Shown: one piece after another, positions 1-6,629 of the stretch
Layout: each line of letters opens with the position of its first letter
Numbering within the stretch: the stretch's first letter is position 1
Notes under the pieces: generated by a model
Databases searched by the model: none
What the model was told of the DNA's origin: nothing
Seen by the model: the letters and a program-made list of their open reading frames with translations, nothing else
Made by a program: the position numbers and the translations under genes
DNA from: Deltaproteobacteria bacterium RIFOXYA12_FULL_61_11
GTDB lineage: Bacteria; Bdellovibrionota_F; JAHFAK01; YA12-FULL-61-11
Direction of reading: 5' to 3'
Assembly: GCA_001799195.1 (NCBI GenBank)
Contig: MGSU01000101.1
Span: 1-15,605 of the forward strand
DNA: 15,605 nt

Positions 1-1571
1 TGGTCGTCATCGGGGGGGGGATCACCGGCGCGGGGGTCGCCCGGGACGCGGCCATGCGCGGTCTCTCCACCCTGCTCGTCGAGAAAGGCGATCTGGCCTC
101 GGGCACCAGCTCCCGCTCGGGCAAGTTGGTCCACGGTGGGCTGCGCTACCTGCGGTACGCCAATTTCAAACTGGTCTACGAATCTGCCAATGAGCGCAAC
201 TGCCTGCGCGATGTGGTCGCCCCGCATCTCGTCCGCCCCGAGCGGATGGTGGTGCCGACCTATCGCGACGGACGGTATTCGCGAAACCTGCAGGTGACCG
301 GGCTCTTCCTCTACGGCGCCATGACTCTCTTCCGCAATGCCAACCACTTCGAGATCCTCTCCAACAAGGAACTCGAGCAGGACGTGCCCGGCCTCAGGCG
401 CGGCGACACCAGGGGGGCGGTCGCCTTCTACGACTGTCGGACCATGGACACGCGCCTGACCGTGGACACGGTCAAATCGGCGGTCGAGGCCGGAGCCGAA
501 GTCGGCACGTACTGCGAACTTTTATCCCTCGAATTTTCCCGGGGAGGAAAAGGGGGACGGGCGATACTCCTCGATCGGCTCGACGGTGGACGGCACGAGG
601 TAGAGGCTCTGGCCTTCGTCAATGCCACCGGGGTCTGGGGGGACGAACTCCTCGCCCGAGCGGGCGCCCGCGAACGCTTCAACCTGAAGAAGAGCTGTGG
701 GGTGCATGCCGTCGTGCGCCGAGAGCGCCTCGGTCATGACTTCTCGGTGTCGGTCGAATCCTTTGTCGACAAACGCTTCCTCTATCTCATGCCCTGGGGG
801 GAACACACCCTCATCGGCACAACCGACGCCTACTATTCCGGCCACCCGGACCAGGTCGTCCCCCGGGCTGCCGACCTGGACTACCTGCTCGAGGCGGTCA
901 ACTGGCACTTCCCTCGCGCCAGGCTCTCGAGGGCTGACGTGACGTGTTGTTACGCTGGGCTTCGACCCCTGGTGACCCAGGAAGACGTGCCCGAGGAACG
1001 CGCCTCGCGGGACTACGAGCTTGCCGTCGATCCCCGGGGCCTGGTCTCCATCACGGGAGGCAAGTTGACGACCTACCGCTTGATGGCCCGCAAGGTGGTC
1101 GACCTGCTGGTCCGGCGTTTTTTCGCCCATCGCCGACTGCCCCGCTGCCTGACCCGTTCCCCAATCTCCGGAGGCCTCCCCCTGTACCTTCCCCGACACA
1201 GTAGAGTCTCGTTATCGCGCCGCTTCGACCTCGACCCCGAGGTCCTCGAGCACCTGATCTCCCGTTACGGGTCCAATTATCAGGAACTTCTCGCCCTGAT
1301 CGAAGGAGATCCCTCTCTGGCCGAGCGCTTGCGGCCCGACCGGCCCTATTGCCTGGCCGAGCTGTCCTATCAGGTCGAGAGGGAATACGTCGAGTGCCTC
1401 GACGACCTCTTGCAGCGCCGTACCACCTTGTTCTGGTTCACCGATGACAACGGCCTGGCCGTGGCCGAGAAGGTAGCCGCCCGACTGGCCGCCTTACTCG
1501 GCTGGGACGCCCGTCGCAAGGAGGCGGAACTGGAACGGTACCGGGTCAAGGTCGCTCAGGCAAGACCCTGA
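1..1571 (+). CDS. glpD: Aerobic glycerol-3-phosphate dehydrogenase, 5'-truncated by the window edge
   Basis: FAD-dependent enzyme that oxidises sn-glycerol 3-phosphate to dihydroxyacetone phosphate and passes the electrons to the quinone pool at the inner membrane. The reading frame is open from base 3 and begins inside the N-terminal FAD-binding Rossmann motif (VVIGGGITGAG), so only a few N-terminal codons are missing. The first visible ATG is not the true start. Family landmarks follow in order: GLRYLR, the segment around MDTRLTVDT, ATGVWGDEL, GTTDAYY, CYAGLRPL and GGKLTTYR, then the C-terminal helical domain ending near a QRRTTLFWFTDD segment that is typical of GlpD. About 522 residues remain, close to the usual 500-560. 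A run of nine G encodes the Gly-Gly-Gly of the FAD motif; the frame is intact there. Its stop lies inside the 3' end of the convergent oxidoreductase gene. No glpF or glpK is visible in the window. Confidence 0.95.
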   Translation, partial: VVIGGGITGAGVARDAAMRGLSTLLVEKGDLASGTSSRSGKLVHGGLRYLRYANFKLVYESANERNCLRDVVAPHLVRPERMVVPTYRDGRYSRNLQVTGLFLYGAMTLFRNANHFEILSNKELEQDVPGLRRGDTRGAVAFYDCRTMDTRLTVDTVKSAVEAGAEVGTYCELLSLEFSRGGKGGRAILLDRLDGGRHEVEALAFVNATGVWGDELLARAGARERFNLKKSCGVHAVVRRERLGHDFSVSVESFVDKRFLYLMPWGEHTLIGTTDAYYSGHPDQVVPRAADLDYLLEAVNWHFPRARLSRADVTCCYAGLRPLVTQEDVPEERASRDYELAVDPRGLVSITGGKLTTYRLMARKVVDLLVRRFFAHRRLPRCLTRSPISGGLPLYLPRHSRVSLSRRFDLDPEVLEHLISRYGSNYQELLALIEGDPSLAERLRPDRPYCLAELSYQVEREYVECLDDLLQRRTTLFWFTDDNGLAVAEKVAARLAALLGWDARRKEAELERYRVKVAQARP

Positions 1572-3169
1572 GACTCAGGACGTTTTTCGGGAAAACGCGC
1601 GGCGAAACGTTCGGCCAGAGCGGTGATGGTCAACGAGGGGTTGACCCCCAGGTTGGCCGGCACCACAGAACCGTCGCTGACGTACAGGCCTTGATAGCCG
1701 AAGACCTGGTGATCTTCGTCGAGGACTCCCCGCTCCGGCCCATCGGCCACGCAACAACCGCCGAGGATGTGGGCCGAAGCCGGGATGCCGAACAGGACTT
1801 CGGCGGCGATGTTCTGCGGCTCGCCGTCGATCTCTTTGGCCAGCAAGGTCGCCGCGGCCTGGGCCACGGGCAGGTAGCTCGGCACCGTGGCGCCGGTGCG
1901 GTCCCGGATGAGGTCGCGGCGGAACAAGGTGAGCGGCGAGCGTCCCAGACCCAGGCGCATGGCCGTGTCTCGGCTCTGCATGACCAGCAGGATGAGCGAA
2001 TGCTTGGCCCAGTCGAGCATGGTCCACAAACGCACGAGCCGCGGCAGCGAGAAGAGGATAGTCCCCAGCAGTCTCAAGGGCCGCACTAGTCTGTTCCCAG
2101 GGCCGGTGAGAGGAACGCCGATGAGGCGGAGTAAACCACTGCCGGCCGGATACCGAACGGCCTCGATCTTGGTCTCGGCATCGGGGTTGATGGAGGAACC
2201 GATGGCCACACCGGTGGAGAGATCCAGGTCCTTCCTGAGGGTGGTCGCGCCGAGCAGGCTCTCGCCGTTGGTCCTGACCCGATGTCCCAGGGAAGGAGAC
2301 AGGTCGGGCAGGGTCTTGTAGACGTCGCGGTTGCGGAGGAGTAGGCGCAGGGTGCCGAGTACCCCGCAGGACAGGATCACCGCGTCGGCAGAAAACCGGA
2401 GGCCTTCGCTTCGCAGCCAGGCATCGGTGCGCCGGGTCTCTATCTGCCAACGCCCATCCTTTGTCGAGGAAGGCGGGAGCAGCCGGGTCGCGGTCAGCAG
2501 CGGATGAATGATCGCTCCCGCAGCTTCGGCGAGGTGGAGATAGTTCTTCGGCAAGGTGTTCTTGGCGCCGACCCGGCAGCCGACCATGCACCCGCCGCAG
2601 AACGTGCAGCCGGTGCGTACCGGTCCTCGGCCTTCGAAATAGGGGTCGGCCTGTTCCTTGCCCTCCTCGCCGAAGTAGACTCCGACCGTGGTGGGGCGGA
2701 AGGTCTGGCCCACCCCGAGTTCGCGACCGACCGCCGCAAGGGCCTCGTCCCCACGGCACAGGCGCGGATTGACCGTGGCGCCGAGCATGCGCTTGGCAAC
2801 CTCGTAGTAGGGGGGCAGCTCTTTTGCCCAATCGGTCGAAGCCGGCCAGGCCGGGTCGCGGAGGACCTCCTCGGCGGGGACGAGGAGAGTATTGCCGTAC
2901 ACCAGACTTCCGCCGCCCACACCCCTGCCTTCGAGCAAGAGGAGGCCGTTGAGCAGGGAGAGCTTTTGGATACCGAAGCAGCGCAGCAGCGGAGCATAGA
3001 GGTAGCGCCGCAGGTCCCAGTTGGTGACCGGAAAATCGGTATCGGCGAAACGCCGTCCGGCCTCGATCACCCCAACCTTATAGCCTTTCTCTCTCAACCG
3101 CAGGGCAGGGACGCTGCCGCCGAAACCGGAACCGATGATCACGACGTCGTAGTGCAGGACGTTGGGCAT
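1556..3169 (-). CDS. GMC-family (cholesterol-oxidase-like) FAD oxidoreductase
   Basis: A 537-residue flavoprotein that probably oxidises an alcohol group; the substrate cannot be read from the sequence. Seen: an N-terminal ADP-binding motif GSGFGG (residues 13-18) followed by an acidic strand end (VIEAG), a GMC signature GRGVGGGS with a YGNT tail (about 82-94), and a C-terminal block with His467 (HILGGCC), LYVSDGS and Asn510 (GVNPSLTI), the His/Asn pair expected at the active site. A four-Cys cluster, CTFCGGCMVGC (Cys188, 191, 194, 198), is found in the cholesterol-oxidase-like branch of the family. No signal peptide, so probably cytoplasmic. The ATG is chosen because GAGG lies six bases upstream and the FAD motif follows closely; an in-frame GTG nine codons earlier (3196) has no better ribosome site. 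Convergent with glpD, 16 bases overlapping. No convincing promoter was found, only a G-rich leader. Confidence 0.9.
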   Translation of the reverse strand: MPNVLHYDVVIIGSGFGGSVPALRLREKGYKVGVIEAGRRFADTDFPVTNWDLRRYLYAPLLRCFGIQKLSLLNGLLLLEGRGVGGGSLVYGNTLLVPAEEVLRDPAWPASTDWAKELPPYYEVAKRMLGATVNPRLCRGDEALAAVGRELGVGQTFRPTTVGVYFGEEGKEQADPYFEGRGPVRTGCTFCGGCMVGCRVGAKNTLPKNYLHLAEAAGAIIHPLLTATRLLPPSSTKDGRWQIETRRTDAWLRSEGLRFSADAVILSCGVLGTLRLLLRNRDVYKTLPDLSPSLGHRVRTNGESLLGATTLRKDLDLSTGVAIGSSINPDAETKIEAVRYPAGSGLLRLIGVPLTGPGNRLVRPLRLLGTILFSLPRLVRLWTMLDWAKHSLILLVMQSRDTAMRLGLGRSPLTLFRRDLIRDRTGATVPSYLPVAQAAATLLAKEIDGEPQNIAAEVLFGIPASAHILGGCCVADGPERGVLDEDHQVFGYQGLYVSDGSVVPANLGVNPSLTITALAERFAARFPEKRPESQGLA

Positions 3170-3568
3170 GGTCGCCTCGGGAGTGGGTAGGTCCACCCCA
3201 CCCTACCCGATCGGTGAGGCAAAGGCTACCAAAGGTCCCGGAGGTGTCGTATTACTTCAGTCTTGGGGTGAATTGTAGGTTGTTTGTCACCACGTTGGGG
3301 TGGCGCCGACGGGGGTCCCCCGCCACGCGCAAGCATGAGCATGGTGGGGGCGACCGCAAGGATGCGGACCTCCAAGCGACGCGCAGGATGCAGCGGCGTC
3401 GGTGTGAGAGGCGACAGGACCCCGTACCCCGACCAAGACTGAAAAGTTACGGTGATGTCCCATTTCGACCCCGTCGGGTGCGCACTTTCGCCCCCGATTC
3501 GATACTGTCCGAGACACCCTGTCGATGTTGTTTCTTTATTATCATATAGATGCATGAATTACTGGGTG
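3170..3568. other. Gene-free, hairpin-rich intergenic region
   Basis: No credible coding sequence. Two overlapping minus-strand frames and one plus frame stay open here, but they have low-complexity, Pro/His/Arg-rich composition and no ribosome site. What can be seen is structure. GTGGC and GCCAC arms enclose a GGGGGTCCCCC core (about 3299-3333). There is a near-repeat GGATGCGG / GGATGCAGCGG (about 3360-3395), a CGAC-CCC-GTCG hairpin (about 3467-3477), and an AT-rich tract (about 3530-3560) just before the sigma-54 promoter. On the minus strand the first bases upstream of the oxidoreductase start contain GGG-TA-GGG-T-GGGG-T-GG (3193-3208), a possible mRNA quadruplex. The stretch could be a decayed mobile element, a dispersed repeat or an enhancer region. 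I do not recognise it. Confidence 0.45.
3506..3516. promoter_or_regulatory. Possible activator-binding palindrome upstream of the sigma-54 promoter
   Basis: TGTC-CGA-GACA is a perfect 4-base-arm inverted repeat centred about 84 bases upstream of the predicted sigma-54 start. Sigma-54 activators usually bind 80-150 bases upstream of the start they control. The position fits, but the repeat is short and no cognate activator gene is in the window. Confidence 0.25.
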
Positions 3569-3584
3569 TGGCACAGACCTTGCT
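3569..3584 (+). promoter_or_regulatory. Sigma-54 (RpoN) -24/-12 promoter
   Basis: TGGCAC-AGACC-TTGCT matches the core sigma-54 consensus TGGCAC-N5-TTGCW at every defined position, with GG at 3570-3571 and GC at 3582-3583. The expected start is about 12 bases after the GC, at the A of 3595. There is no plus-strand gene downstream: the next thing transcribed is an intrinsic terminator, and then the 3' end of the opposing symporter gene. By hand estimate, a match to about 10.5 specified bases is expected by chance only about 0.015 times on both strands of a window this size. Confidence 0.7.
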
Positions 3585-3594
3585 AATCTCCTAC

Positions 3595-3648
3595 ACCATT
3601 GAAAGGAACCCCGAGGTCGATCCCCCCCTCCGACCTCGGGGTTTTTTG
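3595..3648 (+). ncRNA. Predicted sigma-54-driven small RNA of about 53 nt
   Basis: Inferred transcript running from the predicted sigma-54 start to the end of the T-run. It would consist of a 14-nt single-stranded 5' tail (ACCATTGAAAGGAA), an 11-bp perfect stem and an 11-nt loop holding seven consecutive C. A C-rich loop is complementary to G-rich Shine-Dalgarno sequences, as in known bacterial small RNAs with C-rich loop motifs. No open reading frame fits inside it. It could instead be an aborted leader of a longer antisense transcript into the symporter gene that is released only under anti-termination. Expression is unproven. Confidence 0.4.
3609..3647. terminator. Intrinsic terminator, probably bidirectional
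   Basis: CCCCGAGGTCG (3609-3619) pairs perfectly with CGACCTCGGGG (3631-3641) across an 11-nt C-rich loop. Six T follow on the plus strand, which is the stronger direction. Read on the minus strand, the same hairpin lies about 36 bases after the symporter stop and is followed by TTCCTTT, so it can also end the four-gene operon. Confidence 0.85.
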
Positions 3649-3676
3649 TTTCTTGCGTCTGGTGCCTCTACCTCCC

Positions 3677-5086
3677 TTACCCCCTTCTCCTCCGTCGGTG
3701 CAGCCGTGCCACCACCTTCGCGCCCAAGAGGATAAGGGCGGAACTGAGCAAACCTGGATAGATCGGTTCTAGCCCGAAGAGATGAGCATTCCCCTCGCTC
3801 CCCGGGACCAGGGTCCACAAAGTCGCCACCACACCGCTGGTGGTCATGGCCACCACCGCGGCGCTCGGTGACGGCCGAGAGGGCGGGTGGAAGGAGGCGA
3901 GGAGCGGGAGGAGCAGGACAGGCGCGGAGATCGAACCAAGACTCTTCCAAATACCCACCACCGATTGCTGGGCATAGGCAATGAGCACCGAGAGGATCCC
4001 GGTCGCAACGAGCGCAACGCGGGTCAGTCTCACGCTGCGCTGTTCGGAGAACGCCCCCCCCAACTTGCCCAGGAAATCCCGCCCGAGAGTCACTGCCGCG
4101 AGGAAGGCATAGCTGTCGACGGTCGACATAATGATGGCCAGGAGACCGGTCAGGAAGATTCCCAGGAACACCGGGGGTAGCAGCCGATCGGCCAGGGCGA
4201 GATACGCGAAGACCGGTCGATCCAAGTCCGGCACGATAGCTCGGGCATAGAGACCGGACACGGTGGTCAAGGCGTCGAAGCCGATCCAGCAGAGCATCGA
4301 GAGCAACAAGCCGGCCTTCGCTACTTTTGCGTCGCGGGCCGCGAAACAGCGCTGATAGAGGCTCGGTTCGACCAGGGTTGCCAGAGCGATGAAGAACCAG
4401 ACCAGGATGGCTGAGACCGGCAGACCTCCATGCCAGGTCAAGTGCTCTTCCGGCAGGTGTTCTCGCAAGAAATTCAACCCGCCATAGTTGACCAGCGCGA
4501 AGGGCACCAGCATGAGAAAGGCCGCGAACATCAGGACGAACTGGAAGAGATCGGTGCGGACAACGGACCGGAAGCCGCCGCGCAGAATATAGCAGGTCGA
4601 GAACACGGTTCCTGCAATCAGACAAACCGGGAGTTGCCAGCCGAACAAGGCCTGGAGGAGGATGGCGAGCATAAGCACATAGGCCGCGGGCACGGTCGTG
4701 ACGAAGAGGAAGAGCGCGCCGATCAGCGAGGCGGTCTTGCCGTAATGACGTTCGAGTTGCTCGGGGATGGTGGTGAGCCGCGCCGTGCGTGCTTTCTCCG
4801 CCAGGAACAGGGCGAAGACGAGGATAGCCAGGTAGTAGGGCACCCCGAAGACAACCCAGTTGACCAGCCCGTGCCGGTAGGAATATTCACCCACTCCGAG
4901 AATCCCGCCGTACCAGGTCGACACCGTCGTTGCCACGAAGGCCGGCAGGGTCAGGGTTCGACCTGCGAGGAGATAGTCAGCACTGCTCTTTACCGTTTTC
5001 GTCCTGAGCAAGGCGAAGCCGAGAACCAGCACGAACGCGAAGTAGGAACCAACGATCAGGACATCGAGCCAATGGAGGTTGAGCAT
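3677..5086 (-). CDS. Sodium:solute symporter (SSF) family permease
   Basis: A 469-residue polytopic inner-membrane protein. It starts with a short periplasmic tail and a hydrophobic helix (VLIVGSYFAFVLVLGFALL), then the SSF landmark SSADYLLAGRTL before the next helix, and continues with roughly twelve to thirteen hydrophobic segments to an Arg-rich cytoplasmic tail (RLHRRRRRG). SSF proteins use the Na+ gradient to import sugars, amino acids, carboxylates or vitamins; which of these applies here cannot be told. The ATG directly abuts the TAG stop of rnhB with no base between, and AAGG lies eight bases upstream inside rnhB, so translational coupling is expected. It is the last gene of the operon. 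A run of eight C (G on the coding strand) near 4054 encodes Gly-Gly and is a possible slippage or sequencing-error site, but the frame is open through it. Confidence 0.9.
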   Translation of the reverse strand: MLNLHWLDVLIVGSYFAFVLVLGFALLRTKTVKSSADYLLAGRTLTLPAFVATTVSTWYGGILGVGEYSYRHGLVNWVVFGVPYYLAILVFALFLAEKARTARLTTIPEQLERHYGKTASLIGALFLFVTTVPAAYVLMLAILLQALFGWQLPVCLIAGTVFSTCYILRGGFRSVVRTDLFQFVLMFAAFLMLVPFALVNYGGLNFLREHLPEEHLTWHGGLPVSAILVWFFIALATLVEPSLYQRCFAARDAKVAKAGLLLSMLCWIGFDALTTVSGLYARAIVPDLDRPVFAYLALADRLLPPVFLGIFLTGLLAIIMSTVDSYAFLAAVTLGRDFLGKLGGAFSEQRSVRLTRVALVATGILSVLIAYAQQSVVGIWKSLGSISAPVLLLPLLASFHPPSRPSPSAAVVAMTTSGVVATLWTLVPGSEGNAHLFGLEPIYPGLLSSALILLGAKVVARLHRRRRRG

Positions 5087-5795: not shown

Positions 5796-6629
5796 TCAGG
5801 TCAGACCGCGAGCTTGTTTGATCCGTTCATAGGCCGCACCGAGGTCCTGGAAGCGGCGCTTGGCGAGTTCCACGAATTCAGGAGGCAATCCCTTGGCCAT
5901 GGCCACGTCGGGGTGATGTTCCTTGGCCAAGCGGCGATAGGCGGCTTTGAGCTCGCGCTCTCCCGCCTCCGGGGTCAAACCCAAGAGGGCATAGTCGCCG
6001 CCGGTCTGCGGAACGAAGGAGGCCCGGAGGGCGCGATACTCCTGCTCGGTCACCCCAAAGATCGAGGCAACCTCATCGATCAGGGTTTGTTCGGCGGGAT
6101 GGAAATGCCCGTCGGCCGAGGCCACCTCGAACAGAATCTGGAGCATGAGGTAGAGCAGTTCCCGGCGACCGGCGCTCAGTTGTAGGTACTGGCGGGCCAA
6201 GGTCTCGACGGGAAAAGCACGGTTCTTGGCCTGCTCGAAGATCGCGATGGCCAGGGCGCGCTGCTCGCGGCTGAGTTGCAGCCGGCGACGCATGAAGTCC
6301 TCGATACGATCCAGCTCGGGCCTGGTGACCACGCCATCGGCCTTGGCCAGCTTTGCCAAGAGGGAGAAGGTGGCGACGAAGAAGGCGTACTGGTGGCGGG
6401 CGAGCTCGGAGGGCTCGGGACGTTCAGCGCTGCAGGCAGGACAGTCCACGCCGAGCACCGTCGGAATGGGGCGGCCACAACGCGGGCAGAGCTCTGTCTT
6501 CGTCGTGGTCGTACTCTGTTCCAGAGCCTTGTCCAAGAGACTGCCCAGAGCCGCACCGGCCAAGCCGCCGAGCGGACCGCCCAGGGACCACCCCAGGGCT
6601 CCGCCGAACATGGTCGCGAACCAGCTCAT
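5796..6629 (-). CDS. DjlA-like membrane-anchored TerB and J-domain co-chaperone with zinc ribbon
   Basis: A 277-residue protein. Residues 1-34 are Gly/Ala-rich with GGxxG repeats ending in SLLDKALEQ, like the single membrane segment of DjlA. A CPRC-X11-CPAC zinc ribbon (Cys48, 51, 63, 66) follows, then a helical TerB-like domain (about 78-195) with the acidic metal-site pattern KADGVVTRPE and ASADGHFHPAE. A C-terminal J-domain (about 211-277) carries the HPD tripeptide at 239-241, which stimulates the ATPase of a DnaK-type Hsp70. E. coli DjlA has TerB and J domains but, to my knowledge, no such ribbon. The ATG is chosen because GGAGG lies five bases upstream; an in-frame TTG eleven codons earlier is less likely. 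The gap to the transpeptidase stop is 29 bases. Expected at the inner membrane, helping envelope-stress or folding functions through DnaK. Confidence 0.85.
   Translation of the reverse strand: MSWFATMFGGALGWSLGGPLGGLAGAALGSLLDKALEQSTTTTKTELCPRCGRPIPTVLGVDCPACSAERPEPSELARHQYAFFVATFSLLAKLAKADGVVTRPELDRIEDFMRRRLQLSREQRALAIAIFEQAKNRAFPVETLARQYLQLSAGRRELLYLMLQILFEVASADGHFHPAEQTLIDEVASIFGVTEQEYRALRASFVPQTGGDYALLGLTPEAGERELKAAYRRLAKEHHPDVAMAKGLPPEFVELAKRRFQDLGAAYERIKQARGLT

Follow-up and report, generated by a model that had tools for sequence, protein, structure and literature searches.

The window, by which we mean the whole stretch of 15,605 nucleotides analysed here (contig C101), contains an intergenic region between a GMC oxidoreductase gene and a sodium:solute symporter gene, in which a match to the sigma-54 promoter core is followed by a terminator hairpin. 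The features of this region and the two flanking genes are as follows:

1556-3169, minus strand: GMC oxidoreductase gene, cholesterol-oxidase-like (PF05199/PF00732); the gene starts at 3169
3506-3516, no strand: short palindrome TGTCCGAGACA (TGTC-CGA-GACA) with 4-bp arms
3528-3563, no strand: AT-rich tract upstream of the promoter, a possible bend or activator-loop region
3569-3584, plus strand: sigma-54 promoter core TGGCAC-N5-TTGCT (-24/-12), exact match, with the letters TGGCACAGACCTTGCT
3595-3647, plus strand: predicted small RNA of 53 nt, its start placed by the usual sigma-54 spacing and its end by the terminator
3603-3619, plus strand: 5' arm of the terminator hairpin
3620-3630, plus strand: loop AUCCCCCCCUC, the proposed anti-Shine-Dalgarno seed
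3631-3647, plus strand: 3' arm and U tract of the terminator
3677-5086, minus strand: SSS-family sodium:solute symporter gene (PF00474, E = 1.7e-31); the gene ends at 3677

The original prediction of a sigma-54 core at this position was confirmed, the sequence at 3569-3584 being exact, whereas every other site in the window has two or more mismatches. The hairpin starts 22 nt past the core, and the interval between promoter and terminator holds no gene, as had been stated. Since both flanking genes are located on the minus strand, the RNA would be convergent with the symporter gene and divergent from the GMC oxidoreductase gene, whose match to NF058674 is under the cut-off of that model. The terminator, which had been described as an 11-bp stem, is real and stronger than claimed: the hairpin contains 13 perfect pairs (3607-3619 with 3631-3643) and, with an A-U/G-U extension, 17 pairs (3603-3619 with 3631-3647), and is followed by the T tract TTTTTTGTTT. 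Its predicted stability is -29 kcal/mol (z = -5.1), which was equalled by none of 200 shuffled sequences. Nearly all of the predicted 53-nt RNA consists of this one terminator hairpin, and the C-rich loop is predicted to be unpaired in the fold. The 50 nt upstream of the unit are 66% AT, as compared to 40% genome-wide, in agreement with the AT-rich tract noted earlier. The palindrome did not hold up as an activator site; its arms are only 4 bp long, and neither a counterpart of it nor a common activator palindrome was found upstream of the sister units described below.

The genome (4.64 Mb in 342 contigs, 87% complete, 60% GC) contains one match to rpoN, and the sigma-54 activator domain is matched about 30 times. 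The exact core TGGCAC-N5-TTGCT occurs at eight sites genome-wide, all of which are intergenic, as compared to five sites for the reversed control pattern. When one mismatch was allowed, no enrichment was observed genome-wide (68 sites versus 74 in the reversed control), and counts of sites alone would thus not show the use of sigma-54. It is the context that makes the exact sites credible: they look functional because seven of the eight, all but the site in the window, are shortly followed by a ribosome-binding site and a start codon. The site in the window is the only one of the eight without a gene behind it. In the other genome of the class (G001), near-consensus sigma-54 sites are strongly enriched, with 106 sites versus 8 in the reversed control.

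We searched the whole genome by blast with positions 3480-3665 and recovered one strong match, on the reverse strand of contig C335 (E = 2.3e-10), which covers the hairpin only. A sigma-54-like core, TGGCACAAGAAATGCT, is nevertheless present upstream of the C335 hairpin in exactly the same register. In an ungapped comparison of the two copies, the -24 element is identical at 6/6 positions and the -12 element at 4/5 (10/11 overall), whereas the N5 spacer agrees at 1/5 and the spacer from -12 to the start at 4/10. The RNA is identical at 44/53 positions (leader 6/8, 5' arm 13/17, loop 11/11, 3' arm 14/17), as compared to 17/50, 17/50 and 22/48 in consecutive upstream segments, 5/11 in the tail and 16/50 downstream. 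Identity is thus high in the promoter core and in the RNA, while the promoter spacers and the flanks have diverged. In the stem, three pairs are changed on both sides and one is changed on one side between G-U and A-U, with no pair broken. Such covariation was matched in 65 of 500 shuffles and is not significant alone; with only two sequences, the stem changes therefore support the structure but do not prove it. The original prediction was to be given up if the promoter drifted while the hairpin was kept, and the C335 copy, with 6/6 and 4/5 positions retained in the two promoter elements, instead favours an RNA gene. Judged from the sequence, promoter and hairpin are conserved as one unit between the two copies.

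A simpler explanation is that the hairpin only serves the minus-strand symporter operon, as a bidirectional terminator, and that the sigma-54 site is a chance match or a relic. The hairpin forms in the minus-strand reading too, and it is located about 30 nt past the stop codon of the symporter gene, just as the C335 hairpin is located about 30 nt past the stop codon of a PEBP-family gene that is oriented in the same way relative to it. The window hairpin may accordingly double as the symporter terminator on the other strand. A terminator alone would not, however, readily account for the matching promoter cores in the same register at both loci despite diverged spacers, nor for the features of further units in the same genome.

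These units were identified in a scan of approximately 1.76 Mb of the genome for hairpins preceded by a sigma-54 site with no more than one mismatch, irrespective of the loop. The scan also returned loci on contigs C57 and C87, with the loops ACCCCCCCUC and UUUCCUCCUCCUUU:

C57 unit: sigma-54 site TGGCATCAGCTTTGCT, stem GCCTGAAGTT, loop ACCCCCCCTC
C87 unit: sigma-54 site TGGCACGGAACCTGCT, stem GCCATGGGG, loop TTTCCTCCTCCTTT

The C57 stem, as read by eye, is largely that of C335 with a further compensated pair beside the loop; this unit is located about 100 nt from the contig end. A loose pattern searched against the whole genome returned the four loci plus one match without the same features, and one match in the reversed control. 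In all four units, the 50 nt upstream are 66-76% AT in a genome of 40% AT, and the longest T tract 3' of the hairpin is on the sigma-54 strand, which argues against a terminator that serves only the opposite strand. The loops vary in detail (C7-U-C versus CCUCCUCC), yet all are C/U-rich. With two further units of the same architecture, the earlier proposal of a dedicated RNA gene gained support.

The association between sigma-54 sites and C-rich loops was quantified in about 2.28 of the 4.64 Mb. Under relaxed criteria (a stem of at least 6 pairs and at least 5 T in 8 positions), 45 intergenic terminators were identified, and four of them are preceded, at a distance of 15-75 nt, by a sigma-54 site with no more than one mismatch. 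C-rich loops are present in 4/4 of these and in 0/41 of the others (Fisher's test, p = 7e-6), in 4/4 versus 0/8 under strict criteria (p = 0.002) and, if the window and C335, which are not independent discoveries, are set aside, in 2/2 (C57 and C87) versus 0/41 (p of about 0.001); all of these p-values are descriptive, because the criterion for calling a loop C-rich was chosen once the loops had been seen. A sigma-54 site at this distance and with at most one mismatch precedes 4/12 of the strict intergenic terminators, as compared to 0.31% of random intergenic points. Judged by sequence, C-rich loops are associated with sigma-54 terminators, and both this confinement and the rarity of such upstream sites by chance speak against a terminator and nothing else, which we consider improbable. 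The two roles are compatible rather than exclusive. Strong intrinsic terminators are in general rare in this genome, with 12 to 45 intergenic ones in 2.28 Mb depending on the criteria, and much of the termination may therefore use other means.

At C87, a same-strand MMPL-family gene begins about 195 nt past the terminator, and this unit might therefore be a leader. Extended to the family, the suggestion would be one of attenuation: the terminator would stand ahead of a longer transcript, and read-through would carry the regulatory effect. In the window, however, the next same-strand gene is more than 4 kb away and the symporter gene is antisense, while at C335 about 800 nt, including an opposite-strand gene, separate the unit from the next gene on its own strand. 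Nor is any alternative anti-terminator pairing evident in the 53-nt RNA, and a leader is in our assessment highly improbable, even more so than a terminator alone. A separate small-RNA gene is the preferred reading.

A fifth and weaker candidate was observed on contig C113 (L288, 7516-7610, plus strand), with a sigma-54-like site that contains two mismatches (TGGCATAAACTGTGCT), a very AT-rich upstream region, a strong terminator, a short ACCC loop and CCCTCTCC in a stem arm. The neighbours of three units include the MMPL gene, which has a sterol-sensing domain match (L193, 10384-12723, minus strand), and two GMC oxidoreductase genes (1556-3169 on the minus strand in the window, the cholesterol-oxidase-like one, and L178, 5353-6870, minus strand), which may be coincidental. 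The GMC oxidoreductases near the window and C335 copies are only distant relatives, and their presence is probably a coincidence.

We also looked for the unit in other genomes. The class and the phylum are represented by one other genome only, which contains neither the symporter nor the sigma-54 RNA unit, and conservation is therefore shown only between copies within one genome. An alignment of intergenic regions via relatives of the GMC protein was abandoned, as the nearest ones are about 50% identical, are spread over many phyla and are too distant. A covariance-model search of 290 genomes yielded one outside match, a C10-loop terminator in G204, which was rejected as a family member since the promoter part does not fit. 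The matched locus in this unrelated genome (L244, 1264-1585) consists of an exact sigma-54 site, an open reading frame of about 40 codons and the C10-loop terminator. A tighter pattern matched 26 other genomes among 386, mostly without a hairpin around the C-rich stretch. Two of them, both unrelated to the present genome, do contain such a hairpin, its loop being C-rich and a sigma-54-like site standing ahead of it (G102:C61:4334-4416, minus strand, CACCCTCCC; G266:C22:33674-33757, plus strand, ATCCCCCTTC). No match to the unit was found in a plasmid collection or in viral contigs.

Small RNAs with dedicated sigma-54 promoters under the control of enhancer-binding activators, sometimes in several paralogues, include Qrr, GlmY/GlmZ and CrcZ. 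The window RNA would be like them in its control, but those RNAs, described in Proteobacteria, are longer and differently structured, and no Rfam family reaches its gathering score on the window RNA. Sub-threshold scores were obtained for Pseudomon-1/ErsA (RF01719; 23.8 bits versus a gathering score of 50), RybB (RF00110; 27 versus 40) and F6 (RF01791; 26.2 versus 46), none of which was accepted. Membership in alpha-r14 (RF02344) was likewise rejected, with 17.5-18.3 bits versus a gathering score of 58.8 and one hairpin rather than three motif-bearing ones. These weak scores were absent from the sister loci when these were searched whole, where the longer stretches entail stricter filters. The weak RybB, F6, ErsA and ar14 scores are in keeping with a terminator of generic type whose loop is rich in C.

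Closest in mechanism are RepG, 6C/B11 and alpha-r14. In RepG of Helicobacter pylori, the C/U-rich loop of the terminator hairpin is the mRNA-binding site and pairs with G-repeats in leaders (PMC8295292). The window RNA resembles it in having a C-rich terminator loop that would be aimed at G-rich leaders; it differs in having about one stem-loop rather than two, an explicit sigma-54 promoter and several units per genome, and no sequence kinship was shown. The 6C/B11 RNAs of mycobacteria have C-rich loops that are able to bind G tracts of mRNA leaders (PMC10470900), but they carry two such loops per RNA and are actinobacterial, and the window RNA has no match to them in Rfam. In alpha-r14, an identical anti-Shine-Dalgarno motif (CCUCCUCCC) is kept in the loops while the stem sequences differ (PMC10746234). 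The C87 loop, which contains CCUCCUCC, is similar to those of alpha-r14/NfeR1, the cuckoo RNAs of rhizobia; these have three hairpins with the motif in each, however, and for NfeR1, NtrC is a repressor and LsrB an activator.

The 3' end of the 16S rRNA of the organism carries CACCTCCTT, and the loop is complementary to G-rich Shine-Dalgarno sites. The mean predicted pairing energy of the loop is -10.5 kcal/mol in windows around ribosome-binding sites versus -8.7 and -8.4 kcal/mol in the controls, as would be the case for any anti-Shine-Dalgarno sequence, and the strongest predicted pairings are not enriched at ribosome-binding sites (61 versus 60 in the upstream control). The best single target candidate is a beta-helix lipoprotein gene (L163:16117) with GGAGGGGGGGA directly before the ATG, although one such match is unremarkable by chance. 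Another highly ranked candidate, at -24.6 kcal/mol, is the TerB/DnaJ gene (5796-6629; GGAGGGGG), which belongs to the window's own operon. A G-run on contig C65 was rejected as a target since it is located between convergent gene ends. A tblastn search of half of the genome identified no Hfq, which settles nothing.

Target prediction gave no sharp winner, and this, together with loops that vary in detail and remain C/U-rich, would also suit a real sigma-54 small RNA that works in another way, by sponging up a protein or a second RNA or by binding ribosomes in general. In other bacteria, however, G-rich leaders are the targets of RNAs whose loops are C-rich, as in RepG (PMC8295292) and B11 (PMC10470900), and we regard such another mode of action as unlikely, albeit less so than a terminator without an RNA gene.

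We propose instead that the RNA acts by pairing with mRNAs. An enhancer-binding activator, one of those encoded in the genome, would trigger the sigma-54 form of RNA polymerase to start at about position 3595 and stop at about 3647. The product, 53 nt long, would comprise hardly anything beyond its own terminator hairpin, with AUCCCCCCCUC as the exposed C-rich loop. This loop would be the seed: by pairing with target mRNAs at G-rich ribosome-binding sites (GGAGG(G)n), it would hinder their translation. The window RNA would be one of a family of at least four such units in the genome (C101, C335, C57 and C87). We infer transcription, its dependence on sigma-54 and the action by loop-mRNA pairing from these features. 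That the locus is a dedicated small-RNA gene seems very likely, while pairing by the loop is a mechanism that we favour with less assurance; the statement as a whole, that is a sigma-54 small-RNA gene in a family of at least four units whose loops pair with ribosome-binding sites, is on the evidence of sequence probably correct, with the same degree of reserve.

When RNA data are lacking, the small RNAs of deep-branching uncultured bacteria are difficult to detect. In the present case, the evidence from promoter, terminator, loop and sister copies concurs and points to a family in which both the seed and the switch can be tested. The family would unite sigma-54 control with anti-Shine-Dalgarno terminator loops, each a known theme, in a single very small gene. 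As a simple search rule for finding more, we suggest a sigma-54 site with a C-rich-loop terminator behind it. More tentatively, the units could represent an undescribed family of minimal sigma-54-switched riboregulators, each a terminator with a generic anti-Shine-Dalgarno loop seed, in a lineage of which hardly any relatives have been sequenced. If the comparable units in G102 and G266 count, the design would be wider than this lineage. If the proposal is true, one activator signal could dampen the translation of many mRNAs with G-rich leaders at once.
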